Below, one piece after another: positions 7,846 to 29,801 of a DNA stretch of 29,801 nt (positions within the stretch are counted from its first letter, which is position 1; each line of letters starts with the position of its first letter). The notes under the pieces were generated by a model that saw only the letters and a list, made by a program, of their open reading frames with translations, ran no database searches and was not told where the DNA came from. The stretch is from a virus: IMG/VR virus record IMGVR_UViG_3300027749_000377, positions 1 through 29,801 of that record. The stretch is one strand, 5' to 3'. Both the position numbers and the translations under genes were made by a program.

Positions 7846-7860
7846 CTAGGACAAAAAAGA

Positions 7861-8772
7861 ATGGCAAGTCAAATTAACCCAAACGACATCGACGGAGCAT
7901 ATCCGGTTGCTGGACAAGACAATAACTCACAAGGTTTTCGTGATAATTTCACCAACACCAAAACAAATTTTACTTTTGCGGCAAACGAAATTACCGACTT
8001 GCAAAATAACGCAGTATTAAAGTCTGCACTAAACGGAACCACGCTGGACAACAACATGGGTGGAAGTTTGCTATATGATGCTACTATACAGGACTTTGGG
8101 GCCACACGAGTAGCATTAGGCTCAGTATCTGGATCAACTACCGTTAACTACGCTTCTGGACATTATCAAACGCTCACAACTGGTGGCAATGTAACGTTGA
8201 CATTCAGCAACTTCCCTGCATCGGGAATACAGGCCTGGGTAATTGTAAGAGTTACTGTGGCAAGTGTTGCCCACATATTAACATTGTCTTCGGCAGTGGG
8301 CACAGGTGCTAGTTCTGCTTCAGTTTTGGGTATTCAAGGTATCAGCAGTAATGTTATTACCTTTAACGAAACAGGCACATACGAATTCCAGTTCCATACA
8401 GAAGACGGTGGAACCACAATCTATCTTAGCGAACTAACTCGTCCAAGAAACAGATTTACTAATCCATTGCTTTTAACCGGAAGTGAAGACCTGGCTGCCA
8501 GTGGCGCCGCTAGTCTTGCACTTACAACCAGCTACTTCACAACCGCCGCCGCAGAAACAGCCACCTTGGCTGCAGGCACAACCGGACAAATCAAGGTGTT
8601 CAGTGCCGTAAGTATTGCCGCAGGCAACATGGTCATCACAGTGACCAATGCTGGATGGAAGAGTTCAGGTACAGGCACTATTACGTTTGGTACAATCGGT
8701 GCAGGTTGTACTTTACAGTACACCAACAGCAAATGGTTCTGCATTGGCAACAACGGTTGCACCTTCGGCTAA
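7861..8772 (+). CDS. Tail fibre/baseplate-associated structural protein, 303 aa
   Basis: The N-terminus MASQINPNDIDGAYPVAGQDNN... followed by SQGFRDNFTNTKTNFTFAA.EITDLQN is a strongly recognisable opening shared by structural proteins of many T4-like cyanophages and related aquatic phages. Residues ~1-80 are probably the particle-binding, partly coiled-coil segment. Beyond that the chain is Ser/Thr/Gly/Ala-rich with alternating beta strands (YQTLTTGGNVTLTFSNFP) and a C-terminal jelly-roll-like portion ending CIGNNGCTFG, where two cysteines flank a short turn. It starts 15 nt after the Ig-repeat gene and probably shares its late transcript. Exact virion position cannot be read from sequence. 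Confidence 0.83.
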   Translation: MASQINPNDIDGAYPVAGQDNNSQGFRDNFTNTKTNFTFAANEITDLQNNAVLKSALNGTTLDNNMGGSLLYDATIQDFGATRVALGSVSGSTTVNYASGHYQTLTTGGNVTLTFSNFPASGIQAWVIVRVTVASVAHILTLSSAVGTGASSASVLGIQGISSNVITFNETGTYEFQFHTEDGGTTIYLSELTRPRNRFTNPLLLTGSEDLAASGAASLALTTSYFTTAAAETATLAAGTTGQIKVFSAVSIAAGNMVITVTNAGWKSSGTGTITFGTIGAGCTLQYTNSKWFCIGNNGCTFG

Positions 8773-15138: not shown

Positions 15139-18045
15139 ATGTCATCAAACATCGTAACCATAAGCGATTTTGCAATAAATTTAAATTCTGGGGCAAATAC
15201 CCTGGTAGTTACCGGTGCAGTCAGTGCCACAGGTAACCTAATAACCACTGGATATTTGATAGGCAACGGCTCACAATTAACTGGTATTATTACTGCCGCT
15301 GGTAACCCAACAATTGCCAATGGCACATCAAATATATTTGTTGCAAATTCCAGCAACATTACCTTGGGTGTGGCCGGTAGCACAGTTGGTGTATTTGCAT
15401 CAACAGGCGAATATGTAACTGGACTTATTTCAGCAAGTGGAAACGTAATCGCAGGCGGCGCATTAAGTGCCGCTGGCAATGTAAGTGTGGGCACCAGCGG
15501 TATAGTAATTATTGCCAACGTGGCCAATGCAACTGGCGCCGGAACTGGTGCATTACAAGTACAAGGTGGTGCTTCTGTCAGCAAAGATTTATGGGTTGTG
15601 GGCAACATTTATGCCAGCAATATTGTGGGTACAACTGCCAACGTGATCACTATCGAAGACCCACTGGCATATTTTTCCAGCTCCAGCACATATCCATACA
15701 ATTACGACATTGGCTTTTACAGCCATTTTACAGGTGGCACAGGCAACACATATCAACACACAGGTATTGTGAGAGATTTCAATGATGCCACTTGGAAAGT
15801 ATTCAGCAACGCAGGCGAACCCTCAGGCAGTGTGGTTACCTTCAACAGTGACACAATATATGATGCTTTGTTGGCAGGCAACATTACCTCTGTAGGTATT
15901 GTGAGTGCCTCGGGCAACGTGGTTGGCAACAATGTCACGGGCGGTAATGTATTAACTGGCGGGATAATGAGCTCCACCGGTAATGCCATTCATGGCAACA
16001 TATTAACTGGGGGTTTAATATCCAGCACTGGTAATGCAATTGGTGGCAACATATTAACTGGTGGGGTAATATCCAGTACTGGTAATGCCATTCATGGCAA
16101 CATATTAACTGGTGGCATTGTGTCCAGCACCGGTAATGCCATTCATGGCAACATATTAACTGGGGGTTTAATATCCAGCACCGGTAATGCAATTGGTGGC
16201 AACATATTGACTGGTGGCGCAGTTTCGGCTGTTGGCAATGTAACTGGTGCTTACCTTATTGGCAACGGCAGCCAAATAACCAATGTATTCATTGCTGGCT
16301 CAACCGGTGGCGCTATTATTAGCGGAACATCAAATGTAATCACAGCATACAGTAGCAATGTTACTGTGAGTGTGGGTGGCACATCAAACGTCGCTACCTG
16401 GGCAACCACTGGCGAATACATCGCTGGGGTCATAAGTGCTTCAGGCAATATTACCGGCAACTATATCTTAGGCAATGGCTCACAACTGTCTGGAGTTATT
16501 ACAAGTGTGGCCAATATCAACTCAGGAACCTCAAATGTAACTGTGGTAAGTTCAGGTGGTAATATTGCTATCAGTGTGGGTGGCACATCAAATGTTGCTT
16601 ATTTTGCCACCACTGGCGAATACATCACAGGATTGTTAAGTGTCAGCGGTAATGTGATTCCTGGTAACGTGACCACAGGCGGATTGGTCACAGCAACTGG
16701 TAACATAACTGGTGGCAATGTATTGACAGGTGGGCTGATTTCAGCAGGCGGTACTGTAACTGGCACAAGTCACTTGGGTGCAGTCGTTTCGGTAACAGCC
16801 AACATCACTGGTGGTAATGTATTGACTGGCGGTATTGTAAGTGCCACAGGCAACATTGCTGGTAACTATATTTTAGGTAATGGTAGTCAGCTGACTGGAT
16901 TAGCGGCAACATATGGCAACGCCAACGTTGTGGCCAACCTGGCAGCACTGGGTTCAAACCCAGTATCAACTACAGGTAACATAACAAGCGGTAACATACT
17001 AACCAGTGGCCTGATAAGTGCTACTAGTACTATCACAAGTACGGCAAACATCACAGGTGGTAATGTATTGACTGCTGGATTGATCAGTGCTACAGGCAAT
17101 ATATATGGTGGCAATGTAATCAATTCGGGTATTAGCAGTGTTACTGGTAATATCATAGGTGGCAATATTATTACTGCTGGATTGATATCAGCCGCTGGCA
17201 CAGTATCTGCATCAAGTTATTTGGGTGCTGTGGTAAGTGTTACTGGTAACGTAACCGGTGGCAACATTTTGAACAATGGATTAATTTCTAGCACTGGTAA
17301 CAGTACCGCAGGAAACTATCTAACTGGCGGATTGATATCCGCAACTGGCACAGTAACTGGATCAAGTCATTTGGGTGCTGTGGTAAGTGTAACAGCAAAC
17401 ATTACAGGTGGTAACGTATTAACTGGCGGAATAGTCAGCGCCAGCGGTAACATTGCAGGCAACTACATCAGCGCCGCTGGTAACATTGCAGGTGGCTATA
17501 TCAGCGCCAGTGGCAGTATTGTTGCTACCGGCCTAACAGTATCAACGGGCAACGTTACACTGGGCAACATCATCAACGCCAACGGCAATGCTGTGGGCAA
17601 CATTGGTAGCTCAAGTGCATATTTCAATACCATATTTGGCAAAGCAACCACAGCACAATATGCTGACGTTGCTGAAATGTACACAGCCGATGCGGCCTAC
17701 GCTCCTGGCACAGTGGTAGTGTTTGGTGGCTCACAAGAAGTCACACTCAGCACACAAAGTCACGATGTTTGCATAGCAGGTGTGATATCTACAAACCCTG
17801 CTCATTTGATGAACTCCACACTTGTGGCCGAACACACAGTGGCAGTGGCGTTGCTGGGACGAGTACCGTGTCAAGTGACAGGACCTGTGCAAGCCGGCGA
17901 CCGAATGGTATCAAGTGATATTCCGGGTGTTGCAGAACGTATGGATATTGCTCGATATCAACCTGGCACAATTATCGGCAAAGCACTAGAAAACTACTCA
18001 GGCCCGGGCACAGGCACAATAGAGATAGTGGTAGGTAGACTATAA
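15139..18045 (+). CDS. Large repetitive tail fibre protein, 968 aa
   Basis: A long trimeric-fibre type protein. Residues 1-~150 contain S.A.GNL.TTGYLIGNGSQLTGI and a beta-rich head. The middle (~240-830) consists of dozens of degenerate units such as GNILTGG(L/I)ISSTGNAI, GNVTGGNVLTGGIVSATGNI and IGNGSQ(L/I)TG, a glycine-threonine shaft predicted to fold as a beta-helix. Near residue ~827 the sequence becomes non-repetitive: FNTIFGKATTAQYADVAEMY, then APGTVVVFGG, VAGVISTNPA-like, VALLGRVPCQVTG, GDRMVSSDIPG and GTGTIEIVVGRL. That C-terminal ~140-residue domain is widespread at the end of aquatic phage fibres and resembles intramolecular-chaperone/peptidase G2-like tips; whether it self-cleaves is unknown. 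A 51-bp tandem array is inside. The gene starts the second structural block. Confidence 0.87.
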   Translation: MSSNIVTISDFAINLNSGANTLVVTGAVSATGNLITTGYLIGNGSQLTGIITAAGNPTIANGTSNIFVANSSNITLGVAGSTVGVFASTGEYVTGLISASGNVIAGGALSAAGNVSVGTSGIVIIANVANATGAGTGALQVQGGASVSKDLWVVGNIYASNIVGTTANVITIEDPLAYFSSSSTYPYNYDIGFYSHFTGGTGNTYQHTGIVRDFNDATWKVFSNAGEPSGSVVTFNSDTIYDALLAGNITSVGIVSASGNVVGNNVTGGNVLTGGIMSSTGNAIHGNILTGGLISSTGNAIGGNILTGGVISSTGNAIHGNILTGGIVSSTGNAIHGNILTGGLISSTGNAIGGNILTGGAVSAVGNVTGAYLIGNGSQITNVFIAGSTGGAIISGTSNVITAYSSNVTVSVGGTSNVATWATTGEYIAGVISASGNITGNYILGNGSQLSGVITSVANINSGTSNVTVVSSGGNIAISVGGTSNVAYFATTGEYITGLLSVSGNVIPGNVTTGGLVTATGNITGGNVLTGGLISAGGTVTGTSHLGAVVSVTANITGGNVLTGGIVSATGNIAGNYILGNGSQLTGLAATYGNANVVANLAALGSNPVSTTGNITSGNILTSGLISATSTITSTANITGGNVLTAGLISATGNIYGGNVINSGISSVTGNIIGGNIITAGLISAAGTVSASSYLGAVVSVTGNVTGGNILNNGLISSTGNSTAGNYLTGGLISATGTVTGSSHLGAVVSVTANITGGNVLTGGIVSASGNIAGNYISAAGNIAGGYISASGSIVATGLTVSTGNVTLGNIINANGNAVGNIGSSSAYFNTIFGKATTAQYADVAEMYTADAAYAPGTVVVFGGSQEVTLSTQSHDVCIAGVISTNPAHLMNSTLVAEHTVAVALLGRVPCQVTGPVQAGDRMVSSDIPGVAERMDIARYQPGTIIGKALENYSGPGTGTIEIVVGRL
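15943..16248 (+). repeat. 51-bp in-frame tandem repeats, six units
   Basis: Units begin at 15943, 15994, 16045, 16096, 16147 and 16198, exactly 51 bp apart, each encoding 17 residues of the form GN(I/V)LTGGxxSSTGNAIxG. Adjacent copies are nearly identical over long stretches (GGCAACATATTAACTGG recurs in most). The two-unit pattern 'AIHG... AIGG' also appears twice, suggesting past duplication of a larger block. The array keeps frame, so copy number can change fibre length. Confidence 0.9.
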
Positions 18046-18189
18046 ATGTCAACGATTGTAATAGAAGGCGGAATCACCATTGAGACCGGTATCTACATTG
18101 GTGTTGACGTGGATCTCTCTGTGTTTTTTACAACAGAGGACAGCAATCAACTGATCAGTGAAACAGGTGATAGTTTCATCGAGGAATAA
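18046..18189 (+). CDS. Small fibre-associated protein, 47 aa
   Basis: Starts directly after the TAA of the large fibre gene and ends 2 nt before the next ATG, so it fills the gap exactly. The N-terminus reads STIVIEGGITIETGIYIGVD, which shares the G-I-T-I-x-x-G-I-x-x-G motif with the proteins starting at 28801 and 29581. The tail TTEDSNQLISETGDSFIEE resembles the 'TEDG.QL..E.GD....E' end motif found in aquatic phage structural proteins. Probably a tiny structural or adaptor protein. GAGGA before the following ATG provides the next ribosome site. Confidence 0.65.
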   Translation: MSTIVIEGGITIETGIYIGVDVDLSVFFTTEDSNQLISETGDSFIEE

Positions 18190-18191
18190 TA

Positions 18192-19331
18192 ATGAGTAGT
18201 AATATTAAATTTAGTCAACTGCCCAATCTAGGCACTATCACAGCCAACACCACAGTACCGGTGGTTGCTGCCGGTACCAACTACACCATCACAGCGGCCA
18301 ATTTACAAAGTTATGTAAACAGCAGTACTGGCAACGTAACTGCCAACTATTTCATTGGTAACGGATCACAACTCACAGGATTACCGGCAACATATGGCAA
18401 CGCCAACGTTGTGGCCAATTTGGCTGCGTTAGGTTCTAACCCTGTATCAACAACAGGAAACATAACCGGCGGCAACATCCTTGGTGTTAATAATATCAGC
18501 ACTGGAACTATCACACTCACAAACGGTGCAGTGATTCTAGACACAGCTGATGGCGCAGTGGCCTTTGGTAGCGGTGCTGGCATTAGCCCACAAGGCGAAT
18601 ACGCAGTGGCCATGGGCTTTAGTGCTGGACAAGGTTCACAGGGCAATGCCGCAGTGGCTATCGGTGGTGGGGCTGGTGAAACCTCACAAGGCGACTCAGC
18701 GGTGGCCATTGGTTATCAGGCTGGTGGAACCAATCAGGGCAACAATTCAATCATCATCAATGCTACTGGCACGACATTAGATCAAACCACAGCCAACACA
18801 TTCACAGTGGCCCCGGTCCGCAATGATGTGGCCAATACGAGTCAAGTCATGTTCTACAACACCACTTCAAAAGAAATCACATATGGCAATACTATAAGTG
18901 TAGCTGGCAACATCACAGCCGCTAATTTTGTCGGTAATGGTAATACCTTATCTAATGTTGCTACTCAGGTAACCGGATCCTGGACAGTGCCTACAGGCAA
19001 CAGCACTCAGAGTTTTACTGTGGCGGCCAGCAAGACCTACCTCATGTGGGTTGATTGCAATATCCCCAATGGTATCTTGGCTTGGAACGCCACGGCTACT
19101 GTTACCAATACCAATGTGCCTGTGGTGGGTGCTCAGTATGCCTGGGTCTACAACGGTGGTGGATCGCCCATTGACTTTACCAGCATACCCAATCAGTTCG
19201 TAGGCACAGCAAACTCCATAGTTCGTAGCAGTACGGCACCTAGCGCAACTACCAATAGATTTGACTTTGGTATCAACAACACCAGCGGCGGTAATGTCAC
19301 TGTGCGTTACGGTTGGACCAAAATAAGTTAA
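18192..19331 (+). CDS. Tail fibre protein with YadA-head-like repeats, 379 aa
   Basis: Opens with MSSNIKFSQLPNLGTITANT, followed by TVPVVAAGTNYTITAANL, a recurrent N-terminal domain of aquatic phage fibres. Residues ~50-98 contain IGNGSQLTGLPATYGNANVV and the [12 protein letters not shown] shaft motif, also present in the large fibre. Residues 122-185 are four 16-residue units AVA(F/M/I)G..AG..(P/S)QG.., like the left-handed beta-roll of trimeric autotransporter heads (YadA/Hia), then SIIINATG. Residues ~258-379 form a C-terminal beta-sandwich-like domain ending GGNVTVRYGWTKIS. Likely a receptor-binding fibre tip or short fibre. It lies third in the fibre operon. An alternating-frame minus ORF here is a shadow. 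Confidence 0.83.
   Translation: MSSNIKFSQLPNLGTITANTTVPVVAAGTNYTITAANLQSYVNSSTGNVTANYFIGNGSQLTGLPATYGNANVVANLAALGSNPVSTTGNITGGNILGVNNISTGTITLTNGAVILDTADGAVAFGSGAGISPQGEYAVAMGFSAGQGSQGNAAVAIGGGAGETSQGDSAVAIGYQAGGTNQGNNSIIINATGTTLDQTTANTFTVAPVRNDVANTSQVMFYNTTSKEITYGNTISVAGNITAANFVGNGNTLSNVATQVTGSWTVPTGNSTQSFTVAASKTYLMWVDCNIPNGILAWNATATVTNTNVPVVGAQYAWVYNGGGSPIDFTSIPNQFVGTANSIVRSSTAPSATTNRFDFGINNTSGGNVTVRYGWTKIS
18555..18746 (+). repeat. 48-bp in-frame repeats, four units (YadA-head-like)
   Basis: Four consecutive 16-codon units starting AVAFGSGAG, AVAMGFSAG, AVAIGGGAG and AVAIGYQAG. Conservation is at protein level (AVA.G..AG...QG..), with drifting DNA, so this is an old, structurally constrained repeat rather than a recent duplication. 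Confidence 0.85.
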
Positions 19332-20027: not shown

Positions 20028-20550
20028 GGGTCTGCAATATAAAGACCTAGAGGGCATGATGAAGCCCACGCTTCACGTGGACGAATTTGCGGCCAAAATG
20101 GGTGATGACGATGATATCATTGTGCTATCATTCTTTGTGCGTGATTTAACAGCCGCCAAAGACCTAGTGGGATGGTTTGAAAAGGGCTATGACTTTGTGT
20201 TGGATGCCGATCGTAGCCCAGGTGAAATCAAGCCCAGCCGTTATCTAGTGTACTTAGAACTGCGTCGCCGTAGATCAGCACCACAGCACGTACAAACGCT
20301 GTTGGATGATTTATCGACACTGACAGAATTTGCCCCAGAAGAATGGCGATTCAAATACGATGGTCGAGACCATGAATGGTCTGAAAAGACCTTTAGTGAA
20401 CTGGTGCCATTAACTCCGGATTCTTATAGAGCCACGCACGAAGATGACCTAAATGATGTGCGCACAGCGGCGGGTATTGCACCCAAAAAGATTCACGAAA
20501 AACTGCCGGATGATGTTAAATCATTGCAGAGCATGGCCGGGATACGATAA
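19960..20550 (+). CDS. Conserved phage protein, 196 aa
   Basis: Start ATG 19960 has AGAGGA at 19943-19948; ATG 19975 is an alternative. Features include LLSEGLQYKDLEGMMKPTLH, then DEFAAKMGDDDDIIVLSFFV, AAKDLVGWFEKGYDFVLDAD, and YLVYLELRRRR with HVQTLLDDLSTLTE, EEWRFKYDG. The acidic strand followed by a Trp-containing helix and a repeated strand-helix unit suggests a small alpha/beta domain, possibly ferredoxin-like (ACT-like) by pattern; this is by eye only. Genes of this kind commonly follow the previous one in T4-like aquatic phages, and I know of no proven role. It shares one base (ATGA-like, TAATGA) with the next gene at 20550. Confidence 0.75.
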   Translation: MNKPTMLNNPFNSNQPLPALLSEGLQYKDLEGMMKPTLHVDEFAAKMGDDDDIIVLSFFVRDLTAAKDLVGWFEKGYDFVLDADRSPGEIKPSRYLVYLELRRRRSAPQHVQTLLDDLSTLTEFAPEEWRFKYDGRDHEWSEKTFSELVPLTPDSYRATHEDDLNDVRTAAGIAPKKIHEKLPDDVKSLQSMAGIR

Positions 20551-22358
20551 TGAAGATAAACGACGTACTAGTAGAATTTGCACCCGCAGGTGGCGGAGGT
20601 TCAGGCAACTACTTTCAAGCCTTGGCCTCGGCCTGGTACAATGGTACCTTTGACACAGGCAGCCTGCAAAAAGGCATCAAGAGTCAAGAAGACGTGGAAC
20701 GCTTGTTGAATCGCGGCATTGTGTGCCCAGACGGCAAGACTCGTAAACTGCATATTGATTACAACTCAGACTTTGACGGTGTGGAAATCTACAGTGATGA
20801 CTACTATGAATACGGTGATCACGATGACACCATAGACAGTCGCACAGGCCAAAAATGGGGGCCATATGACTTTATGGCATTCTCAGATGATGAATTAAGC
20901 GAAGGTATTAATGAAAAGTTGGGTGCCAACAGACCCAGTCTAGGCAACCGACGCGATCAATTCCGGAACCTGCACAAGATGCGTAAACAACGTGGGCTAA
21001 ATGAATTCTCAGCCGATGGTGGCGACAGTGGTGGCGACAGTGGTGGCGAAGACGATGCACTACGCAAATACGCTCAAATGTGGTGGACCGGAGACGAAGC
21101 AACGCAAATGCAAATTGAAGCCGCACTGGCCCGTATGGGCTGGGAAATCGGTGAGGACGAAGGCGGCTACGACAACGGCGGTGTGTTTGTGGTACGTGCT
21201 GGCGATGAAAATGGCAAAAGTTATACATCATGGCCCGCAGAAGATTTGTCAGAAGGTGTGGCGGAAGGCTCGTTAGATGAAAAGTCAACAAGCCAGGCAC
21301 AGTTCCGCACAATGGCGGCAGCCGCACACAATCCTGAATTTGCTCGTAAAGTAGGCATCAAACAGAGTGTGGCACGAGAGTTTAATCAGGCCGATCGAGG
21401 GCAAGACTACAAGTCATTGCCAAAAAAGGCCACCGAAGGCGCTCCGGTCACAGCAACTCCGGGATCCATTGAATCCGGTGGAGCGGTGGACAATTTCAAA
21501 CAACAAATGACCAACAATACTGAAATTGCTTACAAAAAAGGCATGGCGGAAGCCGCTTTTATGCACAGCGGACAAAGTGCTCCATTCAGTGGTGTTGGTG
21601 GCACTGCAAAATACGGGTATGGCCTAAACGATATACGAAATGCAAGGGCAAAAAAACCAGAAATTGATGCCAATCTGAGAAAATTTAAAGCATGGATCAA
21701 CGGTGGCCCAAAGCCAGTAGATATAAATGATGTAATTCAATCTGTTGAAGTATATTTTACAAATATCAAACCGCCGTCAGATGCTAGAGTTTCAACGGCA
21801 TTTAATCAAATATTAAATTCACAAGGCCAAGGTTGGGTCGCTAATAAAAATCAAGCCATGCTATTAAATCCATCATTAGACGCAGCCATTAGAGAACCAT
21901 TGCCCAATCAACGTGCTGGAAATAATCAAAACGCAGATGGGTACCCTATCGCTCCTTCAAGGCCAATGGCTGGACAAGCGGCACAACCAGCACAAGCGGC
22001 ACAACCAGCACAACCAGCACAAGCGGCACAACCAGCACAACCAGCACAAGCGACATCAGCACAAGCACCAGCGGCAGCGGCAAATTCAGCAAATCCTGTA
22101 GGTAAGAAATTTAATACTGCAAATGCTACAACTGTTACTCCGAAACCAATAACAAGACCAGCATTACCAATGCGAGAACAAGATACTGTAGAAAGCAAAA
22201 GCAAGCCCGCAGAAAAAGAAGCCGACTATGGTGATGATTATCAGCAAATGGTTTTGCGCTTGAAAAAACTGGCCGGTGCAGGTCCATTAAAGACTGTGTA
22301 CGATCCGCAAAAGCGTGTGTATCGAAACATGCCCACAGCACAACAGCCCAAAAAATGA
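20550..22358 (+). CDS. Large mosaic protein with capsid-targeting-like N-terminus, 602 aa
   Basis: Begins MKINDVLVEFAP, a tag also seen at 27056 and, in looser form, at 22519, resembling the T4 internal-protein capsid-targeting sequence MKTYQEFIAE. The rest is modular. Residues ~20-110 and ~170-235 look like two diverged copies of one domain (ALASAWYNGTFDTG..., QKGIKSQEDVERLLNRG versus YAQMWWTGDEATQMQIEAAL, ARMGWEIGEDEGGYDNGGVF, DENGKSY.SWPAEDL). Residues ~237-290 carry a SEGVAEGSLDE motif and PEFARKVGIKQSVAREF. Residues ~350-455 are a distinct AT-rich module. Residues ~475-520 are Ala/Gln/Pro repeats, then a basic tail. Function unknown; encapsidation is a hypothesis. Confidence 0.75.
   Translation: MKINDVLVEFAPAGGGGSGNYFQALASAWYNGTFDTGSLQKGIKSQEDVERLLNRGIVCPDGKTRKLHIDYNSDFDGVEIYSDDYYEYGDHDDTIDSRTGQKWGPYDFMAFSDDELSEGINEKLGANRPSLGNRRDQFRNLHKMRKQRGLNEFSADGGDSGGDSGGEDDALRKYAQMWWTGDEATQMQIEAALARMGWEIGEDEGGYDNGGVFVVRAGDENGKSYTSWPAEDLSEGVAEGSLDEKSTSQAQFRTMAAAAHNPEFARKVGIKQSVAREFNQADRGQDYKSLPKKATEGAPVTATPGSIESGGAVDNFKQQMTNNTEIAYKKGMAEAAFMHSGQSAPFSGVGGTAKYGYGLNDIRNARAKKPEIDANLRKFKAWINGGPKPVDINDVIQSVEVYFTNIKPPSDARVSTAFNQILNSQGQGWVANKNQAMLLNPSLDAAIREPLPNQRAGNNQNADGYPIAPSRPMAGQAAQPAQAAQPAQPAQAAQPAQPAQATSAQAPAAAANSANPVGKKFNTANATTVTPKPITRPALPMREQDTVESKSKPAEKEADYGDDYQQMVLRLKKLAGAGPLKTVYDPQKRVYRNMPTAQQPKK
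21015..21052 (+). repeat. Short Gly-Gly-Asp linker repeat
   Basis: GGTGGCGACAGT is repeated about three times in tandem, encoding a (GGDS)n linker between the two related domains of the 602-aa protein. Confidence 0.7.
21974..22051 (+). repeat. Tandem Ala-Gln-Pro repeat
   Basis: Units GCACAACCAGCACAAGCG and GCACAACCA alternate five or more times, encoding AQPAQPAQAAQPAQ-type sequence. The 9/18-bp period is in frame and nearly identical at DNA level, so it is recent or slippage-prone. It probably forms an extended flexible spacer. Confidence 0.88.
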
Positions 22359-22522
22359 CAAGACGCACAGCAAACGGTCGACCAGTTCCTGTGCTACAAG
22401 GCTCAGCAGGACCTGTAGCACCCAACCCACATGTACCACCACCCATGCCCGCACAGCAGGCAATGACACGATTACCACAGCCTGTGATCAACATGGGACT
22501 GGGCCTGAAACTAAACCCATGA
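22355..22522 (+). CDS. Tiny proline-rich protein, 55 aa
   Basis: A short frame linked by four-base ATGA overlaps to both neighbours (22355-22358 and 22519-22522), strong evidence that it is translated. The product (MTRRTANGRPVPVLQGSAGP then NPHVPPPMPAQQAM and PVINMGLGLKLNP) has about 20% proline, no predicted secondary structure, and a basic N-terminus. The longer overlapping frame from 22315 is an extension of the next gene, not this one. No family is recognised. It may be an extended linker or virion peptide. Confidence 0.6.
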   Translation: MTRRTANGRPVPVLQGSAGPVAPNPHVPPPMPAQQAMTRLPQPVINMGLGLKLNP

Positions 22523-22722
22523 GAGCTAACGAATTCGTCACTGAGAAAAAGCGCATGAAGCGACTGAAAGAACTTACTTTTATGGGCCTGAGTCCTTGCA
22601 CCAAAGACTGTTCAGGACACCGTGCAGGCTACCGATGGTCAAAAGCACGTGGTGGTGTTAGCACAGCAAGCCCAAGCAACAGTTTTAACCGGGGTGCTGA
22701 AATAGCCAAGGCTGGCTACTAA
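22519..22722 (+). CDS. Small basic protein with tag-like N-terminus, 67 aa
   Basis: Starts at the ATG overlapping the previous stop, rather than at upstream in-frame codons (22315). N-terminus MRANEFVTEKKR looks like the tags at 20550 and 27056 (M-K/R-x-N-D/E-x-x-x-E). The body has LTFMGLSPCTKDCSGHRAGY, then RWSKARGGVSTASPSNSFNRG, with two cysteines spaced CTKDC and a run of Arg/Lys. It resembles a small module I recall from T4-like aquatic phages ('PC..DCSGH.AGY.W...RG'). It is basic enough to bind DNA, which would suit an internal head protein; that is inference. It ends overlapping the minus-strand methyltransferase by 4 nt. Confidence 0.72.
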   Translation: MRANEFVTEKKRMKRLKELTFMGLSPCTKDCSGHRAGYRWSKARGGVSTASPSNSFNRGAEIAKAGY

Positions 22723-23438
22723 TTTTTCGTATAAACAAAATACAATCTATCATTGGCATCCTTTTTGTAGGTGTCTAAATGCAAGTTGTATTTCATTTCA
22801 AATTCTTTAACTACTTCAAAAGTCCAATTAAAAATGTCCACATACGGCCCTGTTCGGTGTGTGATTCCAGGATTGGCACGTAGATAAAACTTACCACCTG
22901 TGTCTAGTATATCCACACATTTTTTAAAACGACTTTCTATTTCGTCGCGGCTATTAAAGTTAATTGATCCTAGTGCAATGATAACATCGTGACTGCCAAC
23001 ATAATCAAGTATATCAACCATGTAGTCGGCACAATTATTGTAAGGATCAATACCAACCAAGTTACGGATTCGTCCTTTAAAGGGGTGATACCCACATCCA
23101 ACATCAAGTACGCTACGAGGATTAACAGCGTTAATCTCGTCAGCAAGTTGCCAACCAGTGTAGTCATAGTCTCCGGTCCTGGGTTTCCAGATTTCTCCAA
23201 AGAAGCGATTGATATAACGCTCACTCAAGTCGTCTGTGATATATTTAAGCGAGCCCACGTAATCGCAGGGAAGGCTTAGTTCTGCTTCCACAGCATCTTT
23301 GAACTTTCTATAGCGAGCAGGCGTCCAGGGCAAGTCCTGTACTTGTGTATCAGCCGTGATAGAAATATCAGCATACTTGGGCAAATTAAACGCAGAGTGC
23401 AAATTTTTTTGTAAAAGGTTAAAAATTTTGGTGTTCAT
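22719..23438 (-). CDS. Class I SAM-dependent methyltransferase-like protein, 239 aa
   Basis: Rossmann-type methyltransferase: motif I SVLDVGCGYHPF (109-120), motif II-like LVGIDPY (127-133), then ADYMVDILDY, motif IV-like DVIIALGSINF (151-161), and GGKFYLRANPG after a helix. The ~100 residues before motif I are phage-specific (SLPCDYVGSLKYITDDLSER, IWKPRTGDYDYTGWQLADEI) and may recognise substrate. There are no DNA-methylase DPPY or NPPF motifs, so a DNA target is not indicated; small molecules, proteins or glycans are possible. It is a minus-strand island, convergent with the 67-aa gene and divergent from the Bug gene, with only 51 bp between the start codons. Confidence 0.82.
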   Translation of the reverse strand: MNTKIFNLLQKNLHSAFNLPKYADISITADTQVQDLPWTPARYRKFKDAVEAELSLPCDYVGSLKYITDDLSERYINRFFGEIWKPRTGDYDYTGWQLADEINAVNPRSVLDVGCGYHPFKGRIRNLVGIDPYNNCADYMVDILDYVGSHDVIIALGSINFNSRDEIESRFKKCVDILDTGGKFYLRANPGITHRTGPYVDIFNWTFEVVKEFEMKYNLHLDTYKKDANDRLYFVYTKN

Positions 23439-23489
23439 AAAAAATTTTGATATATAAGTTAGATTTTCAACAGTATTTAAGGAGTTTAC
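23439..23489. promoter_or_regulatory. Short divergent leader with Shine-Dalgarno
   Basis: A 51-bp, AT-rich gap between divergent start codons. AAGGAG at 23478-23483 sits six bases before the Bug gene ATG. TATATAAGTT at about 23450-23459 is a weak -10-like element. No clear -35 is visible in either direction. Confidence 0.4.
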
Positions 23490-24467
23490 ATGTCAATCAA
23501 AAAATTATTAATTGCCGCATTGCTAGTGCCTGTGTTAGCATTTGCCTGGGAGCCTGCTAAACCTGTCACAGTTGTTATTGGCAACACACCCGGGGCTGGA
23601 AATGAAATGGCCTTTAGAAAACTTGCAGAAATTGTGCAGAAACGGAATCCCAATTTTGTGTATGTTGTGCAAAACATTCCTGGTGCCGATTCAGTTGTTG
23701 CCAACAACAAGTTTTTAGAAGCAGCCGCAGATGGCTTGACCATTAATTTGCCCAGCCACATGAGTTCATATGTAACAAATGATATCTGGGAAAAGTCAAT
23801 AAAGAAATACAACTACGACTCATTTGTTGATGTGCTAACAATGGGTAAAAGTCCTTTAGCACTAGTAGCGTCAGTCAAAAGCGGAATTGAAACCCCACAA
23901 GACTTTGTGAAGTACATACAGTCCGGCAAAACAATCAACGTGGCCATTGGCGGCGGCGCACACCGTACTGCTTTTGAATACTTGATGGATCGAGCCCGTG
24001 GCAATCGAGACGCTGTTCGATCCATCAAGTTCAATGGCCCTGTTCCTGCTGTGCAAAGCGTGGGCCAATGGGATGGCAAGACCGGCACTGAATTTGGTAT
24101 CATGCCCATTGCTGTGGCCAAAAGCCTGATAGATGCAGGCCGGGTCAAACCTATTGGATTCACAGGCACAAGAAAGATGCCACAGTTTCCCAACGTTCCG
24201 TTGCTAAACACTGTGGCGCCAGGCATAAACGTATATGCCGCGTGGTCAATTCAATTGCCCCCAGGTACCGGCAAGGACATTACGGAATGGTATCAACGTG
24301 AATTTTCAGCCGCTGTACGTTCAACAGAATATCGAGAATACACAGATGCCAATGTTATCTTTTATGCTGAAGATGAATTGACTCCTGCAGGACTAAAGCG
24401 GCACATGGAAGAATTACGTGCCGCCTTTTTACCTGTGCTGAGCAAGATTGATTTAAGTAAAGAATGA
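23490..24467 (+). CDS. Periplasmic tricarboxylate-type solute-binding protein (Bug/TctC family)
   Basis: Signal peptide MSIKKLLIAALLVPVLAFA (cleavage likely A19|W20), then the family opening KPVTVVIGNTPGAGNEMAFR (cellular Bug proteins: P.GGG.D..AR), QNIPGADSVVANNKFLEAAA (usually N.PGAGG..A....A...DG), SPLALVASVKSG, TPQDFVKYI and IGGGAHRTAFEYL, VPAVQSVGQWDGKTG and PIGFTGTRKMPQFPNVP. At 325 residues it is full length. These proteins capture carboxylates in the periplasm and hand them to the TctAB membrane components, absent here. A phage copy would have to use host TctAB or act in signalling. It is first of four ATGA-linked genes behind a strong AAGGAG. The ligand cannot be deduced. Confidence 0.88.
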   Translation: MSIKKLLIAALLVPVLAFAWEPAKPVTVVIGNTPGAGNEMAFRKLAEIVQKRNPNFVYVVQNIPGADSVVANNKFLEAAADGLTINLPSHMSSYVTNDIWEKSIKKYNYDSFVDVLTMGKSPLALVASVKSGIETPQDFVKYIQSGKTINVAIGGGAHRTAFEYLMDRARGNRDAVRSIKFNGPVPAVQSVGQWDGKTGTEFGIMPIAVAKSLIDAGRVKPIGFTGTRKMPQFPNVPLLNTVAPGINVYAAWSIQLPPGTGKDITEWYQREFSAAVRSTEYREYTDANVIFYAEDELTPAGLKRHMEELRAAFLPVLSKIDLSKE

Positions 24468-25132
24468 AATATATCTTTGATATGAAATCAAATTGGGAAA
24501 CGAGTCGAGCACGTAGCACATATCATTTTAATTCCAAGCAAATTGATCAGCCTGCTGAAGTAATGACATACTTGGGACACATAGAACCCACGTGGTTGGC
24601 AGATTTAAATGACGTAATTGCCACGGCACGGCCAGCAACCTGGGCCACACGAGGCTACAAAGGCGAGGGCATTGAAGCACCACCAGAAGAATTGGCTGCG
24701 GAAGAATATGATTTAACAAGTCACGGCATGAGTCCGGACTTGTCTATCTCGCATTTAAACTGGCGCTTGCCCGAGAGTCTGCGACGCATTAGTGATGCAT
24801 TTGCTCTGGCAGACTGTATGGATCGCATACACGTACAACAGCCCGGACAAGTGTGGAACTTGCACATAGACAAGTTATACAAATGGGATCCAGACCACCC
24901 CGAACAGGTCATGCGAATAATGATACAACTTACAGACTGGCAACCCGGGCAGTTCTGGAGTTACGGCAACTACAACTACAGCCAATGGCGTGCCGGCGAT
25001 GTCACTACATTTGACTGGGCCAATGTCCCGCACTCTACTGCCAATGCTGGATTTGAACCCAGGGCAACATTACAATTAACCGGCATACGAACTGCCGCAA
25101 CCATGGACTACCTAGCGGCAATACCCCGATGA
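24464..25132 (+). CDS. 2OG-Fe(II) oxygenase-like (double-stranded beta-helix) protein, 222 aa
   Basis: The core reads VWNLHIDKLYKW (130-141), giving HxD at H134/D136; then VMRIMIQLTDWQPGQFW; WRAGDVTTFDWANVPHSTAN with H190; and PRATLQLTG with R200. That H-x-D...H plus downstream Arg is the iron/2-oxoglutarate signature of the jelly-roll oxygenases, in a form like the aspartyl hydroxylase-type families. The order and spacing (54 residues from D136 to H190, 10 more to R200) are right. The N-terminal ~115 residues are helical and specific. Substrate unknown. It is translationally coupled to both neighbours, between the Bug protein and the sulfotransferase-like gene. If the iron ligands are not as I read them, a cupin is the alternative. 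Confidence 0.7.
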   Translation: MKYIFDMKSNWETSRARSTYHFNSKQIDQPAEVMTYLGHIEPTWLADLNDVIATARPATWATRGYKGEGIEAPPEELAAEEYDLTSHGMSPDLSISHLNWRLPESLRRISDAFALADCMDRIHVQQPGQVWNLHIDKLYKWDPDHPEQVMRIMIQLTDWQPGQFWSYGNYNYSQWRAGDVTTFDWANVPHSTANAGFEPRATLQLTGIRTAATMDYLAAIPR

Positions 25133-25749
25133 AAACAATCTTAATCTTAACAGGGCCGCAAGGCTCGGGCAATCATTTATGGTCAAAAATATTTGCGCTA
25201 CATCCGCAGGTTTGGGGTTGGTCAGCACTGTTAAATGATTACTGGATAGGGCACGATCAAGAGCCATTTGCCCAGTACTGGCAGGATCCAGAACAGTTAA
25301 AATACTTTAAATGGGCGCAAAGCGACTGGTATGTGACTTCAATGAGTGTGCCTTATATGAATAATGGTGAACCCACTGTGCCTGATTTTAAATCATTTGT
25401 GACTAGATTACAAGTGTCAGGCCTACGTGTGAAGTTTGCTGTGCTGGGACGGGACAGAAACATTGTCCAAATGCAACAAACCCGTGTGCGTGGCGCACCC
25501 ACCCTGGCCACAGCACTGTCAGAGTTTGATCAATTGGCTGCCCCTGTGTATTTGAGTTATGAAATGTTGCATCTTTATGGCACAAAGTATCTAGAAAACG
25601 TACAACAACAATTGGCCTTTCCTATTGCTGTCAACGACGCTAGATTAACGGATATACTAGCAACAGACGCAAATGCCAAGTATTTTCAACCCATCAAGCA
25701 TCATGCCACAGATGATCTTGCACGTCACACTTCAAGGAAACACCGATGA
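25129..25749 (+). CDS. Sulfotransferase-like P-loop protein, 206 aa
   Basis: N-terminal ILILTGPQGSGNHLWSKIFA contains a P-loop-like phosphate-binding loop (GPQGSGNH) of the kind sulfotransferases use to bind 3'-phosphoadenosine 5'-phosphosulfate; the next segment LHPQVWGWSALLNDYWIGHD is typical of phage members I recall. The second sulfotransferase landmark, an Arg-rich strand-turn-helix near the 3'-phosphate site, may be VLGRDRNIVQMQQTRVRG (residues ~107-124). It lacks the Lys of a classical Walker A kinase (GxxGSGNH rather than GKT), which favours sulfotransferase over kinase. It is directly followed by an APS-kinase-like gene that could make its donor. The acceptor is unknown. Fold assignment is by motif only. 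Confidence 0.6.
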   Translation: MKTILILTGPQGSGNHLWSKIFALHPQVWGWSALLNDYWIGHDQEPFAQYWQDPEQLKYFKWAQSDWYVTSMSVPYMNNGEPTVPDFKSFVTRLQVSGLRVKFAVLGRDRNIVQMQQTRVRGAPTLATALSEFDQLAAPVYLSYEMLHLYGTKYLENVQQQLAFPIAVNDARLTDILATDANAKYFQPIKHHATDDLARHTSRKHR

Positions 25750-26588
25750 AACAACCACAACGTATATTGATAATGGGCCTGCCAGGCTCGGGCAAAACCT
25801 ATCTTGCTGAAAGATTAAAACGCTATTTAGAAGCACACATGAATCCCATCAATGAGCATAGTCTTAGACCCATTGCTGATGCACAAGTCACAGTGGCTTG
25901 GCTCAATGCCGACGAAGTTCGCAAACACTACAATGACTGGGACTTCTCTGTAGAAGGTCGCATTAGACAAAGTAAACGCATGCGAGACCTAGCTGATGAA
26001 GCCAACACTGACTATTGTATTGTGGACTTTGTTGCTCCCCTGGTTGAAATGCGCAACAACTTCAAAGCGGACTGGTGCATCTGGGTAGACACAATTGATC
26101 GGGGTCGCTTTGAAGACACAAATCGAGCATTTGTTCCTCCCGAAGTGTATGACTTCCGCATTACAGAACAAAACGCGGAGAAATGGGCAGAGTTCATTGG
26201 ACAACACATTGTTGACAATCAGCGTAGACCTACCTTCAACTGGCAGAAAGAAACTGTTCAAATGTTAGGAAGATGGCAACCCTGGCATGAGGGCCATCGT
26301 GCGTTGTTTGAACGTGCTATTGCAAAAACAGGACAAGTTGTGATACAAATACGCGACTGTCAGGGCTGGCAAGGAACTAATCCTTTTGCTATAGAGCAAG
26401 TGAAACATTATATACGCAGAGATCTAGACCCCATTTATCAAGGCCAATATGAAATACAAGTTGTTCCTAATATTGTTAATATCACTTATGGTCGCGACGT
26501 GGGCTATCGAATCGAGCAAGAGTCCTTTGACGACGCGATTACCGATATCTCTGCGACCAAGATAAGAAAGTCAATGGGATTAGAATAA
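25746..26588 (+). CDS. Fusion of APS-kinase-like P-loop kinase and HxGH nucleotidyltransferase, 280 aa
   Basis: Residues 1-~140: Walker A GLPGSGKT (11-18), then WLNADEVRKHYNDWDFSVEG (52-71) and RIRQSKRMRDLADEA, closely paralleling the LDGDNVR..LN.DLGFS..DR..N.RR signature of adenylylsulfate kinase, then CIVDFVAPLVEMR and IWVDT. Residues ~170-280: LGRWQPWHEGHRALFERAI with HxGH (H181, H184), YGRDVGY (248-254), and ISATKIRKS (268-275), the motifs of the nucleotidylyltransferase alpha/beta superfamily, nearest NadM/cytidylyltransferase types. The kinase would make PAPS from APS if it is a true CysC. What the transferase domain activates is unknown. Last of four coupled genes; the start overlaps the sulfotransferase-like stop. 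Confidence 0.8.
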   Translation: MKQPQRILIMGLPGSGKTYLAERLKRYLEAHMNPINEHSLRPIADAQVTVAWLNADEVRKHYNDWDFSVEGRIRQSKRMRDLADEANTDYCIVDFVAPLVEMRNNFKADWCIWVDTIDRGRFEDTNRAFVPPEVYDFRITEQNAEKWAEFIGQHIVDNQRRPTFNWQKETVQMLGRWQPWHEGHRALFERAIAKTGQVVIQIRDCQGWQGTNPFAIEQVKHYIRRDLDPIYQGQYEIQVVPNIVNITYGRDVGYRIEQESFDDAITDISATKIRKSMGLE

Positions 26589-26599
26589 GATAATTCCAC

Positions 26600-26612
26600 G
26601 CTAAATATTAGC
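26600..26612 (+). promoter_or_regulatory. Late-promoter-like box with inverted repeat before the lysis block
   Basis: CTAAATAT (26601-26608) in a 27-nt gap, embedded in the inverted repeat GCTAA-ATA-TTAGC (26600-26612). It is of the TAAATA type found before other structural genes, and its position at the head of the lysis block fits a T4-style late promoter. The start point would fall at or next to the ATG at 26616. Confidence 0.45.
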
Positions 26613-26615
26613 ACT

Positions 26616-27059
26616 ATGTGGATCTTACACTTTCTTCCTGACAGCATTATTCTTGCATTCTGTAACACTCTGTTATTCGCGGGCATTTTAGCCACCGCGG
26701 CAGGCTTTGTTGCGCATCGTATCCCAGGATTGTGGTCATATCAATTGGGTTTTAAACTGGGTGGTATTGCATTGCTAGTACTAGGCGTGTACTTTCGCGG
26801 TGGACTGGCTGTGGAAGAAACCTGGCGTGAGCGTGTGGCTGCTGTAGAAGCAAGACTTGCTCAGGCTGAAAAGGCTTCAGCAGATGCCAATACAAAAATA
26901 GACACAAAGTCACAAAAGAAAACAACGCAACTACGCGAACGCACCACATACATCCGACAGTATGTGGACCGTGAAGTTGTCAAGTACGATAACACTTGTA
27001 CAATTCCTGAACCATTTATTCGGGCGCATAATGACGCCGCGGAGGCACCTAAAAAATGA
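26616..27059 (+). CDS. Inner-membrane spanin (Rz-like), 147 aa
   Basis: Two hydrophobic segments (residues ~9-32 and ~44-61) are followed by a long, Ala/Gln/Lys/Glu-rich coiled coil (WRERVAAVEARLAQAEKASA...) and a C-terminal stretch RERTTYIRQYVDREVVKYDN, then TCTIPEPFIRAHNDAAEA. This layout (membrane anchor plus periplasmic helix with a terminal IPEPFIRAHN motif) is that of phage inner-membrane spanins in T4-like aquatic phages. Spanins fuse inner and outer membranes in the last step of lysis, partnered here presumably by the lipoprotein at 27919. Having two membrane helices rather than one is unusual, and means the N-terminus would be periplasmic if the coiled coil is too. The stop overlaps the next gene by 4 nt. 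Confidence 0.75.
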   Translation: MWILHFLPDSIILAFCNTLLFAGILATAAGFVAHRIPGLWSYQLGFKLGGIALLVLGVYFRGGLAVEETWRERVAAVEARLAQAEKASADANTKIDTKSQKKTTQLRERTTYIRQYVDREVVKYDNTCTIPEPFIRAHNDAAEAPKK

Positions 27060-27919
27060 AAATAAATGATATTTTAAATGAACAGTGGAGTCAAAAATAC
27101 AAGAGCAGTATCAACTGCTCACACCCCAAAGGGTTTAGTCAACGAGCACATTGTGCCGGCAAAAAGAAACACAACGAAAGTGTTGAAATGGAAATGGTCT
27201 GCGAAGACTGTGGCATGTGTGAAACACACGGTAATGTAATGGAGATTCGGAAGGGTCAGAAAGACTCAAACGGATATACACGTTGTTGGCCGGGCAAACA
27301 CGCCGAAGGCACCAAAAAAGGCAAGAATGGTGGACAGGTGCGTAACTGTGTGCCCAATGAAAGCGTTAACGAAGATGGCAAGCGATGCATGCAATGCGGT
27401 ATGATCAATTGCAAGTGCCCTGGCGATAGTTGCAAGTGCAAGCCGGTCAAGGGTTGGGTGCCTGGCAAAGGATTCCGCAAAGCCATGGACGATGCTGCCA
27501 GTCGAGAACTGGCTGAAGAGTTTGATCTAATAGAAAACATCATTGAAGGTATTGCCGCACAAAATGGTGTAGACGCCGAAGCAGTATGGGCGGACCTAGA
27601 AAGTCTCACAGAAGATGAACTGTATGCGTTTGCTGTGACTTCACAACTGAACGAAGACTGGCAGAAAGCCAACAAGCGCGATAAGACAGATGGCATGAGC
27701 CAAAAGGCCGTGAACTCTTATCGCAGAGAGCATCCAGGATCTAAACTAAAGACTGCTGTGACAACCAAGCCCAGCAAATTAAAGAAGGGTTCAAAAGCCT
27801 CCAAGCGACGCAAAAGTTATTGTTCACGTAGCCGTGGACAAATGAAGATGCACAGCATTAGTTGTAGCAAGACGCCAGACAAGGCCATTTGCAAAGCACG
27901 ACGTCGGTGGAACTGCTGA
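27056..27919 (+). CDS. Cysteine-rich basic protein with capsid-targeting-like N-terminus, 287 aa
   Basis: N-terminus MKINDILNEQWS is nearly the same tag as the 602-aa protein at 20550. Residues ~18-40: INCSHPKGFSQRAHCAGKKK, a Cys/His cluster. Then CEDCGMCETHGN, a segment TRCWPGKHAEGTKKGKNGGQ ending VRNCVPNES, and CMQCGMINCKCPGDSCKCKP, three further possible zinc-binding clusters. An acidic helical middle follows (~residues 150-205). The C-terminal ~90 residues are very basic (KLKKGSKASKRRKSYCSRSR) and end KAICKARRRWNC, a recurring C-terminal domain in aquatic T4-like phage proteins. Mixed zinc clusters and polybasic tail fit a DNA-associated internal head protein. Position between two spanin genes is odd. 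Function is inferred only. Confidence 0.75.
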   Translation: MKINDILNEQWSQKYKSSINCSHPKGFSQRAHCAGKKKHNESVEMEMVCEDCGMCETHGNVMEIRKGQKDSNGYTRCWPGKHAEGTKKGKNGGQVRNCVPNESVNEDGKRCMQCGMINCKCPGDSCKCKPVKGWVPGKGFRKAMDDAASRELAEEFDLIENIIEGIAAQNGVDAEAVWADLESLTEDELYAFAVTSQLNEDWQKANKRDKTDGMSQKAVNSYRREHPGSKLKTAVTTKPSKLKKGSKASKRRKSYCSRSRGQMKMHSISCSKTPDKAICKARRRWNC

Positions 27920-28800: not shown

Positions 28801-29571
28801 ATGGTAGCACCAATCAATTTCGGACCCGGAATCACAATAGGCAGTGGCGTTTGGATCGGAGCAGATCCACCCAATCTCTACACCACACTGGCAGGCAGTT
28901 TGCTGTTCAACGGCACCAGTCAGTATCTTGGTCTATCACCAGCATATACATTGAGCACTGGAGCCTATACCATAGAAGGTTGGTTCTACAACAACAGCAG
29001 TTGGGCCACAGCCTGTGGACTCTGTGGCACCAGCAACGCAGGCGGTCTGCATTGGTTCAACACCGATGCACAGTCATTTACCCTGGACAAAAACGGCGGG
29101 GGTGGCACCAGGACTTATACTTTTCCTGCTAACACCCTGCAGGTCAATCGGTGGCACTACATCGTACTCAATCGCAATGCCACCACACAGGTAGAAACCA
29201 TGTGGGTGGGCACGTTTAGTAACACCGCCAACTATGTGACTTGCACCCAAGCCACAGGTGCTTCTGGCGGCACCAGCATCAGTGGTGGCACACAGGTCAA
29301 CAGTCTTGATTATACCGGCGCCAGCGACTGGGTGGCCAGATACTATGGGGGATATTTCCCGGGCTATATCACTAACTTCAGAGCCACTACAGGTGCGGCC
29401 GTGTACAACAGCACGAGTTCAACAATCACAGCACCGTCAGCACCATTAACATCGGGCGCAAATACCAAGTATCTAATGTTGGGTGCCACAGTGACCACAG
29501 ACACGTCGGGCACACAAACTGTGACCAATAATGGTACTGTGACACAAACCAACACAACTAAACCTTTCTAA
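28801..29571 (+). CDS. LamG/concanavalin-like lectin-fold protein, 256 aa
   Basis: Opens MVAPINFGPGITIGSGVWIG, the GITIGxG motif shared with 18046 and 29581. Residues ~30-190 form a LamG-like jelly roll: GSLLFNGTSQYLGLSPAYTL, then TGAYTIEGWFYNNSSW, FTLDKNGGGGTRTYTF, LQVNRWHYIVLNRNATT and a GYITNFRATTGAAVYN strand near residue ~194, typical of LamG-3 domains (S.YTIE.W.., W.HIA.VR, G.I.N.R.T.G.A.Y). The C-terminal ~45 residues are Thr/Ser-rich with TVTNNGTVTQTN repeats. LamG proteins in aquatic phages are thought to bind surface sugars as fibre or head decorations. It starts 1 nt after the endolysin, so shares the late transcript. Confidence 0.8.
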   Translation: MVAPINFGPGITIGSGVWIGADPPNLYTTLAGSLLFNGTSQYLGLSPAYTLSTGAYTIEGWFYNNSSWATACGLCGTSNAGGLHWFNTDAQSFTLDKNGGGGTRTYTFPANTLQVNRWHYIVLNRNATTQVETMWVGTFSNTANYVTCTQATGASGGTSISGGTQVNSLDYTGASDWVARYYGGYFPGYITNFRATTGAAVYNSTSSTITAPSAPLTSGANTKYLMLGATVTTDTSGTQTVTNNGTVTQTNTTKPF

Positions 29572-29580
29572 GGAAACAAC

Positions 29581-29801
29581 ATGGCATTACCAGGAGTAGC
29601 AGTAGGGGCGGGCATCACAATAGGTGGCGGGATTTTTATGGGCACCGGCAGTCCATTGACCACCACTTCCGTTGGTCAAAATGTCACAGGCGGTCCAAGC
29701 AGTACAGGATTTTTCTTTGCTGTATTAAATAGAGGTTACCAAGGGTGGGATACTTTTGCTGCCAATGGCAACAATGGTTCTTGGACTGCCACAGGCAACT
29801 T
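29581..29801 (+). CDS. Structural protein of the GITIG N-terminal type (partial, runs off the end)
   Basis: ATG at 29581 preceded by AAGGA at 29572-29576; open to the window end (73 codons plus). N-terminus MALPGVAVGAGITIGGGIFM contains the same GITIGxGI motif as the preceding gene and the 47-aa protein. The following ~50 residues (SVGQNVTGGPSSTGFFFAVL then NRGYQGWDTFAANGNNGSW) are Gly/Asn/Thr-rich, as in aquatic phage head or tail decorations. It is probably a paralogue of the LamG-like gene, but the diagnostic part lies outside the window. Confidence 0.7.
   Translation, partial: MALPGVAVGAGITIGGGIFMGTGSPLTTTSVGQNVTGGPSSTGFFFAVLNRGYQGWDTFAANGNNGSWTATGN

Follow-up and report, generated by a model that had tools for sequence, protein, structure and literature searches.

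The DNA analysed here, a viral record 29,801 bases long that we refer to as the window, is a piece of the genome of an uncultured, T4-like jumbo phage; its bases 1–27,620 are identical, with 0 mismatches, to the end of a 142,901-base IMG/VR contig. Among the 40 genes given by our own simple gene caller (gene starts are likewise our own calls), three open reading frames on the + strand begin with a similar tag of nine residues: MKINDVLVE at 20550..20576, opening a protein of 602 residues (20550–22358), MRANEFVTE at 22519..22545, opening a protein of 67 residues (22519–22722), and MKINDILNE at 27056..27082, opening a protein of 287 residues (27056–27919). These starts, N-termini and lengths are as given in an initial annotation of this DNA, which had proposed that the tag is a capsid-targeting sequence (CTS) of the T4 type, cleaved by the prohead protease from otherwise unrelated proteins. 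On balance the sequence tests agree with that proposal, as gp21 and gp23 are found in relatives, the mature parts are unrelated, Glu9 is conserved and the predicted cut resembles that of the major capsid protein (MCP).

The form common to the three tags, M-[KR]-x-N-[DE]-h-h-x-E (h, hydrophobic), is present on 3 of the 40 window genes, with a mean of 0.16 after column permutation. A broad pattern, ^M.{2,5}[DE][FILVMY][ILVFM].E, gave 3 matches in the window, at least 3 being reached in 3 of 2000 permutations, and none at the 144 internal Met positions; a stricter T4 pattern, E[FL][ILF].E, matched none of the 40 genes. Both patterns were derived from T4 sequences, but they were written after the first list of N-termini had been viewed, so the permutation figures are descriptive. 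Beyond the tag the proteins had been called unrelated, and their mature parts indeed belong to three different homology families. The 27056 and 22519 products are basic and contain Cys, as described (K+R versus D+E of 53 versus 34 and 13 versus 3; 17 and 2 Cys, respectively); the mature part of the 20550 product is not basic (68 versus 74) and has 1 Cys. The residue behind the predicted cut (P1') is F, K or Q in the window tags and thus differs, as had been remarked, from the usual Ala of T4. Over the 198 tagged proteins considered below it is A in 31, K in 25, S in 25, G in 24 and N in 23, meaning that Ala is the commonest single residue without being required.

The tag was then counted in 3,653 unique proteins, taken from 122 viral loci found through homology searches (42 plus the best 80 of 147) and from six relatives (G001, G002, G004, G005, G008 and G009). 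It is carried by 198 of these proteins, which represent 74 families of first modules by the broad pattern and 56 by the strict nine-residue form. Glu is residue 9 in 184 of the 198; residue 2 is mostly R or K, and residue 3 A or I. The KYK module that opens the 27056 product bears 14 different tags on 18 copies, and in 20 aligned homologs of this product E9 and W11 are invariant and residues 1–8 variable. Homologs of the 602-residue protein begin with MKINDILVE or MKINDVLFE (a predicted propeptide, with the cut expected after E9), and the four members of the 67-residue family with MRANEFVTE, MRAQEFVTE or MRAEEFVTE.

Counted by genome, the broad pattern matched 6 proteins in G001, 4 in G002, 7 in G005, 9 in G008, 7 in G009 and 14 in G004 (permutation means 0.7–1.8), and these counts were reached in at most 10 of 2000 permutations. 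The stricter pattern matched 5 in G009, 4 in G005, 3 in G008 and 2 in G001 (means 0.1–0.3). With the requirement relaxed to a hydrophobic residue 7 plus E9, the six relatives kept 65 of their 2,237 proteins, with K/R at residue 2 in 44 (background 19%), D/E at residue 5 in 44 (background 14%) and a hydrophobic residue 6 in 39 (background 40%). Tags are clustered along the genome in G009, G005, G008 and G002 (p 2e-5 to 0.03, for cluster borders drawn after the gene lists had been viewed); a single cargo locus common to all these phages is not proposed. In T4, the source of the pattern, the 6 matches are gp24, IPII, IPIII, gp61.1, the protein at 111327 and the protein at 123454, which we take to be Alt.

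An independent scan of IMG/VR looked for DNA encoding M-R-A-x-E-F-[IV]-x-E from an ATG and, as a control, for the same pattern starting with ATC. At least 120 stretches contained the ATG pattern, and among the matches listed an in-frame stop lay no more than 30 codons upstream in 105 of 127; these listed matches included 107 distinct N-terminal ones in 24 families, the largest with 62 members. The ATC control gave 38 stretches in all, with an upstream stop in 4. Shine-Dalgarno motifs did not separate the ATG matches (30/127) from the ATC matches (12/38). A gp23 match was found in 5 of the 18 loci tested among the at least 120, which had been picked for their long contigs, and in 5 of the 7 longer than 110 kb; 12 of the 38 control contigs, which are shorter (33–55 kb) and not size-matched, had no match above the cut-off and 1 weak match below it. 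Among 12 related records searched, the gp21-type protease (PF03420) was present in 7, with sizes of 197–374 kb, and gp23 in the same 7.

The hydrophobic-x-Glu triplet that ends the tag also stands at the predicted cleavage site of the MCP of the relatives, which alignment with gp23 places at YLKE/NASAGST or MLAE/NASGGAT (a slash marks a predicted cut). Small tagged proteins of the jumbo phages go further and repeat the arm that follows the predicted cut in the MCP of their own lineage (EFIKE/NASVG for an MCP with YLKE/NASAG); thus a 66-residue tagged protein of G005 reads MRAQEFIKE/NASVGATSSGSVATV, the tag being followed by a duplicate of the mature capsid arm. When each MCP arm was compared with its own proteome, T4 returned gp61.1 (MKTFKEFIKE/DMVAGDSGG..., NC_000866 18966–19130) with an E value of 1.7e-6 and S-SM2 returned S-SM2_108 (MKTLKQFLKE/TPTNSVGNGGYTSAGGQTVAGYD, locus L231 377–805) with 5.6e-12, and copies were found in Syn9 (154444, 1.1e-8), KVP40 (13248, 3e-7), G005 (62030, 5e-4) and G008 (65051, 0.005). 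Only weak unrelated matches were obtained in G002 and G004, and none in P-SSM2, HTVC008M and G009. Against shuffled controls, the T4, KVP40, S-SM2 and Syn9 copies scored z values of 13 to 18.5 with their own arm and at most 4.3 with foreign arms, except between close sisters such as T4/KVP40 and Syn9/P-SSM2, gp61.1 scoring slightly higher against the KVP40 arm than against its own. The jumbo arm family of 17 members gave 2.1 to 13 with jumbo arms and at most 4.3 with others. For gp61.1, 1,399 phage records matched, 1,096 of them over at least 80% of the query, and some may be gp23 itself. S-SM2_108 also contains, in its interior, RKTFEEFRE/SWSNKYKKS, the cyanophage form of the KYK module of the window; Bellamy_122 starts with MKSFKQFQE/SW and SynMITS9220M01_096 with MKTFKQFQE/GW. 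The protease and the scaffold of G009 carry a hydrophobic-x-Glu near their own N-termini (MALYLRE/N and DLINE/E). By eye, a protein of 144–146 residues resembling Dps/ferritin was seen in G009 (74602), G005 (62220), G008 (65238), G002 (139834) and G004 (104821), and it adjoins the capsid-arm mimic in 4 of these 5 genomes.

We also located the first residue of each tagged mature part within longer proteins. A [FILVMY]-x-Glu triplet stood directly ahead of the module start in 114 of 191 distinct contexts, against a density of such triplets of 2.5% over the target proteins, and other offsets within 12 residues gave 0 to 14, except +4 (28) and +10 (42), two peaks that we ascribe to a conserved Glu within a module. 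After collapse by family the site was present in 103 of 177 contexts; among the 28 families with internal placements, 20 had at least one site and 15 had one in half or more of their contexts. Untagged N-termini treated in the same way gave 24 sites in 1,235. The first modules of the 20550 and 27056 products were preceded by a site in 6/6 and 9/9 internal placements, respectively. QGVAE, QGVTE and QGLNE recur as linkers: QGV[ATDSN]E occurs 112 times, versus 3.2 times after shuffling and once after reversal of the sequence, most of the 112 coming from loci fetched by homology to window proteins (whole relatives have 1–4 each). T4, KVP40, the cyanophages, HTVC008M and phiKZ have it no more than once each. 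At least one match of the QGVAE type (window 3679) falls in an apparent tail protein. The internal sites keep the hydrophobic residue at P3 and the Glu at P1, not the front half of the tag; at P4, 21 of the 114 have G, 18 N, 12 S and 10 L, versus F or I in 170 of the 198 tags at this position, equivalent to residue 7 of the T4 CTS, where the pattern itself demanded a hydrophobic residue. In the T4 IPIII propeptide, residues 4 and 7 are the main determinants of targeting, and residues 8 and 10 those of processing (PMC9026906). That the internal sites retain only the processing positions is expected if each chain is targeted by a single tag and its linkers need only to be cut.

Both long proteins of the window have several such predicted sites. 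The 602-residue protein (20550..22358, +) is built of several modules; residues 246–296 hit PHROGs annotated as virion structural protein, and the stretch also has tblastn matches in phiKZ-like Pseudomonas phages. Its candidate sites are SEGINE/KLGANRP (residues 117–122, 20898..20915, +), for which a relative has QGVAE/KLGDNRP (L059 14459 / G008 66378), RGLNE/FSADGG (residues 148–152, 20991..21005, +), with QGLNE/FAPG and EQGLNE/FAMG in relatives, and a double site, EGVAE/GSLDE/KSTSQAQ (residues 235–244, 21252..21281, +), ahead of the MAAAAHNPEFARKVG module. The 287-residue protein (27056..27919, +), likewise multi-modular and ending in DUF6321, has predicted sites at GNVME/IRKGQKDSNG (residues 59–63, 27230..27244, +), where the module also stands alone behind a tag in L066 (MRANEFITE/IKKGQKDSNG), at ESVNE/DGKRCMQCGM (residues 102–106, 27359..27373, +), 3 residues ahead of the module where the QQGVAE and RGVAE of relatives lie 4 ahead, and at SQLNE/DWQKANKR (residues 196–200, 27641..27655, +), in front of the DUF6321 module. 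The last of these has a direct counterpart in L439, in which the DUF6321 module stands alone with a tag and starts at the same residue (MRASEFVTE/DWQKVNKKDKTDG versus SQLNE/DWQKANKRDKTDG in the window). One further candidate, ELAE/EF at residue 154 of the 27056 product, was not counted as supported, since the standalone tagged homolog in L006 begins at 151 and not at 155. The 67-residue protein (22519..22722, +) is a basic CxxxCxGHRAGY module that in relatives also forms the C-terminal end of longer proteins.

Signals resembling those of the twin-arginine translocation (Tat) pathway lie behind some of these sites. Nine RRxFL...AxA motifs were found among the 3,653 proteins, spread over 8 of them (L023 6043, L012 262, L012 4688, L020 992, L059 14459, L068 9191, L006 4989 and G001 84954), all in loci or genomes fetched by homology, and none in reversed sequence; all nine lie 2–3 residues behind a [FILVMY]-x-Glu site. 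They follow the tag in L023, in L012 262 and, provided that translation begins at the internal MKTLKEYINE, in G001 84954; one lies just past QGVAE/GSLEE in L068 (residue 28), and the others deep in their chains, at residues 209, 288, 509, 966 and 1113. In L006, the stretch matching the double site of the 20550 product reads SLEE/ID and is followed by such a signal. Several of the motifs appear mutually homologous, so the independent cases are fewer than nine. The Pfam TAT_signal model scored above its cut-off in 3 of the 6 proteins scanned, the cargo behind the signal being GH19 in two and M48 in one (the M48 carrier is L068). With a looser RRxFh motif, a site lay at most 6 residues upstream in 10 of 24 cases versus 3 of 19 in reversed sequence, and no Tat-like motif was present among the 1,328 genes called in the at least 120 loci of the tag scan, among the matches listed.

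These observations establish a shared tag, its restriction to N-termini, the conservation of E9, the coupling of sites to module boundaries and the mimicry of the capsid arm. We consider it probable, at about 0.82, that the tag is a T4-type capsid-targeting propeptide on packaged cargo and that the longer cargo proteins are polyprotein-like, cut at internal linkers. The front half of the tag would dock the protein on the prohead core, the gp21-type head protease would then cut after the Glu of hydrophobic-x-Glu, and the mature protein would stay with the DNA in the head; docking on the core, cleavage, packaging and transfer into the host are inferences. In the 20550 and 27056 products the cleavage half of the signal would recur as internal linkers, so that a single tag could import a string of small modules which the protease separates. 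A Tat signal deep in a protein would make sense if the chain were cut at the preceding site. One may imagine, tentatively and with somewhat less than even confidence, cargo polyproteins with one tag and QGVAE-like linkers cut by the head protease in the prohead, some of whose freed modules carry Tat signals that become N-terminal only after the cut, and phage hydrolases (lysozyme-like GH19, peptidase-like M48) that the host Tat system exports to the periplasm after injection.

Several results weigh against reading the tag as a cleaved targeting propeptide on divisible cargo. Neither the gp21-type protease nor the MCP was found in the window or in its 142.9-kb twin, both of which are fragments. 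The stricter pattern had 0 matches in G002 and 1 in G004 (reached by 570 of 2000 permutations), tags were not significantly enriched in the syntenic cluster of G004 (p 0.13), and KVP40, three cyanophages and HTVC008M possess gp21, yet show no enrichment of the tag. The equivalent of the T4 targeting residue Tyr4 is A or I, not an aromatic residue, in 157 of the 198 tags. For Alt, the mapped cut is at ITE-6, which is not the Glu matched by the pattern. Arm mimicry is uneven as well: the Syn9 copy begins at its Met, with no tag, and the KVP40 copy spans residues 107–141 of 158, so the joining of tag and arm is limited to T4, S-SM2 and the jumbo group; the jumbo family was chosen by a pattern fitted to the arm, which flatters its z values, and its G009 and G002 members are weak (z 2.1–5.5). 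About four in ten boundary contexts (74/177) have no site. The EEFDLIES module (family 27) has one in 9 of 38 contexts and none in 29, and the 22519 module in 0 of 2 longer proteins; 4 of the 28 families were judged accidental pattern matches, contributing 8 of the 103 positives, and their exclusion leaves 95 of 162. An AlphaFold model of the 27056 product from 20 aligned sequences was too poor for anything to be drawn from it (mean predicted local distance difference test score 49.9, predicted template modelling score 0.24).

Other explanations were weighed against the same data. The tag could bind the prohead core or shell without being a cleavage signal, Glu9 being kept for binding. The whole nine-residue pattern does recur, beyond P3 and P1, and Glu-less related starts exist: MILNELY or MFVTELF opens a protein of 72–77 residues encoded between the portal and gp67-like genes (G009 223387, G005 203301, G008 196309, G004 367518, G002 25441) and some very long proteins, of 691 and 1,466 residues with QGV-type linkers, one of which also bears a Tat-like signal. 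A 920-residue protein has a similar start, MNLNDLY. This start, whose pattern was made after the fact and has 0 to 4 matches per relative, may be a second, uncut targeting peptide. Binding without cleavage is nevertheless unlikely, as internal copies retain just hydrophobic-x-Glu and do so at module boundaries, the arm mimics run on past the Glu into the mature MCP arm, and Tat-like signals lie directly behind sites. The modules are clearly shuffled, with 74 first-module families alone or fused, and recombination at gene starts and linkers might simply carry tag and QGVAE linkers along as hitch-hikers with no function in the protein; this is very unlikely when the residue pattern stays while the letters differ (14 tags on 18 KYK copies, E9 invariant with residues 1–8 variable) and when tags and linkers share little besides P3 and P1.

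Cleavage by another protease, or after injection, of proteins that are not head cargo would fit the Tat-like signals, which suggest that the proteins act in a cell and not in the virion. In the same phages, however, the motif also stands at the predicted cut of the MCP, to which the arm mimics tie the tag, and the T4-derived pattern picks out gp24, IPII and IPIII, annotated head or internal virion proteins of T4, so that we regard this explanation as highly improbable. Chance likeness of short N-termini is scarcely credible: the motif is short and degenerate, and some matches look accidental (MDGVLADFFGE, for example), but the permutation, internal-Met, ATG-versus-ATC and untagged-N-terminus controls all contradict it.

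The window lacks the T4 late-promoter motif TATAAATA, and the six relatives show no enrichment for it (3–13 per genome versus 11–44 expected from base composition), a test that says little because the complete T4 genome shows none either (32 versus 40.5). Two other features of the window were noted. A solute receptor of the TctC type (PF03401) with a signal-like N-terminus is encoded at 23490–24467, with a protein in G002 that is very similar by eye, and long repetitive proteins rich in Gly, Asn and Thr, by eye probably tail or fibre proteins, flank the tagged genes at 2202–8772, 15139–19331 and 28801–29801.

Beyond the initial annotation, what appears new in these comparisons is the set of putative internal sites dividing longer proteins, the capsid-arm mimics and the Tat signals behind sites. 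Open-access literature, with subscription journals mostly outside its reach and QGVAE and capsid-arm mimicry not among the queries, yielded no report of the tag in uncultured T4-like jumbo phages. The tag would supply a sequence rule for predicting head cargo, and the positions of its cuts, among the uncharacterised genes of these phages; the arm mimics include a hypothetical protein of the model phage T4, gp61.1; and if the linkers are cut, the head-maturation protease doubles as a polyprotein-processing enzyme for delivered effectors.

Among known systems, polyvalent proteins such as DarA and DdrB of P1 are also multi-domain and proposed to travel with phage DNA, and their authors likened them to viral polyproteins (Iyer et al. 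2017; PMC5512222). Their release is ascribed to embedded peptidase domains, unlike the head-protease cut signal proposed here, and no Pfam peptidase was found in the 20550 and 27056 products. Many head proteins of phiKZ, 201phi2-1 and SPN3US are cleaved behind a Glu by the prohead proteases of these phages, and propeptides are cut at several places (PMC9026906, PMC5694885, PMC10052503); the motif there is S/A/G-x-E or A-x-E, in contrast to I/L/V-x-E here, and the multiple cuts strip propeptides, whereas those predicted here lie between reusable modules. No S, A or G stands at P3 in the window tags, which have L, V and L, and I/L/V occupies P3 in 185 of the 198 tags (the pattern demanded I/L/V/F/M); the tag is not enriched in phiKZ. 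In form the tag resembles the starts of T4 IPII and IPIII (MKTYQEFIAE) and gp24 (MAKINELLRE), with a short N-terminal stretch of an acidic residue, two hydrophobic residues, x and Glu. As with the T4 CTS, unrelated mature proteins carry the tag; a gp21-type protease and gp23 are encoded in 7 of the 12 records searched. The tag described here differs in having nine residues instead of ten and A or I where T4 has Tyr4, and it is further set apart by dozens of carrier families and by a cleavage half that is repeated inside multi-module cargo.

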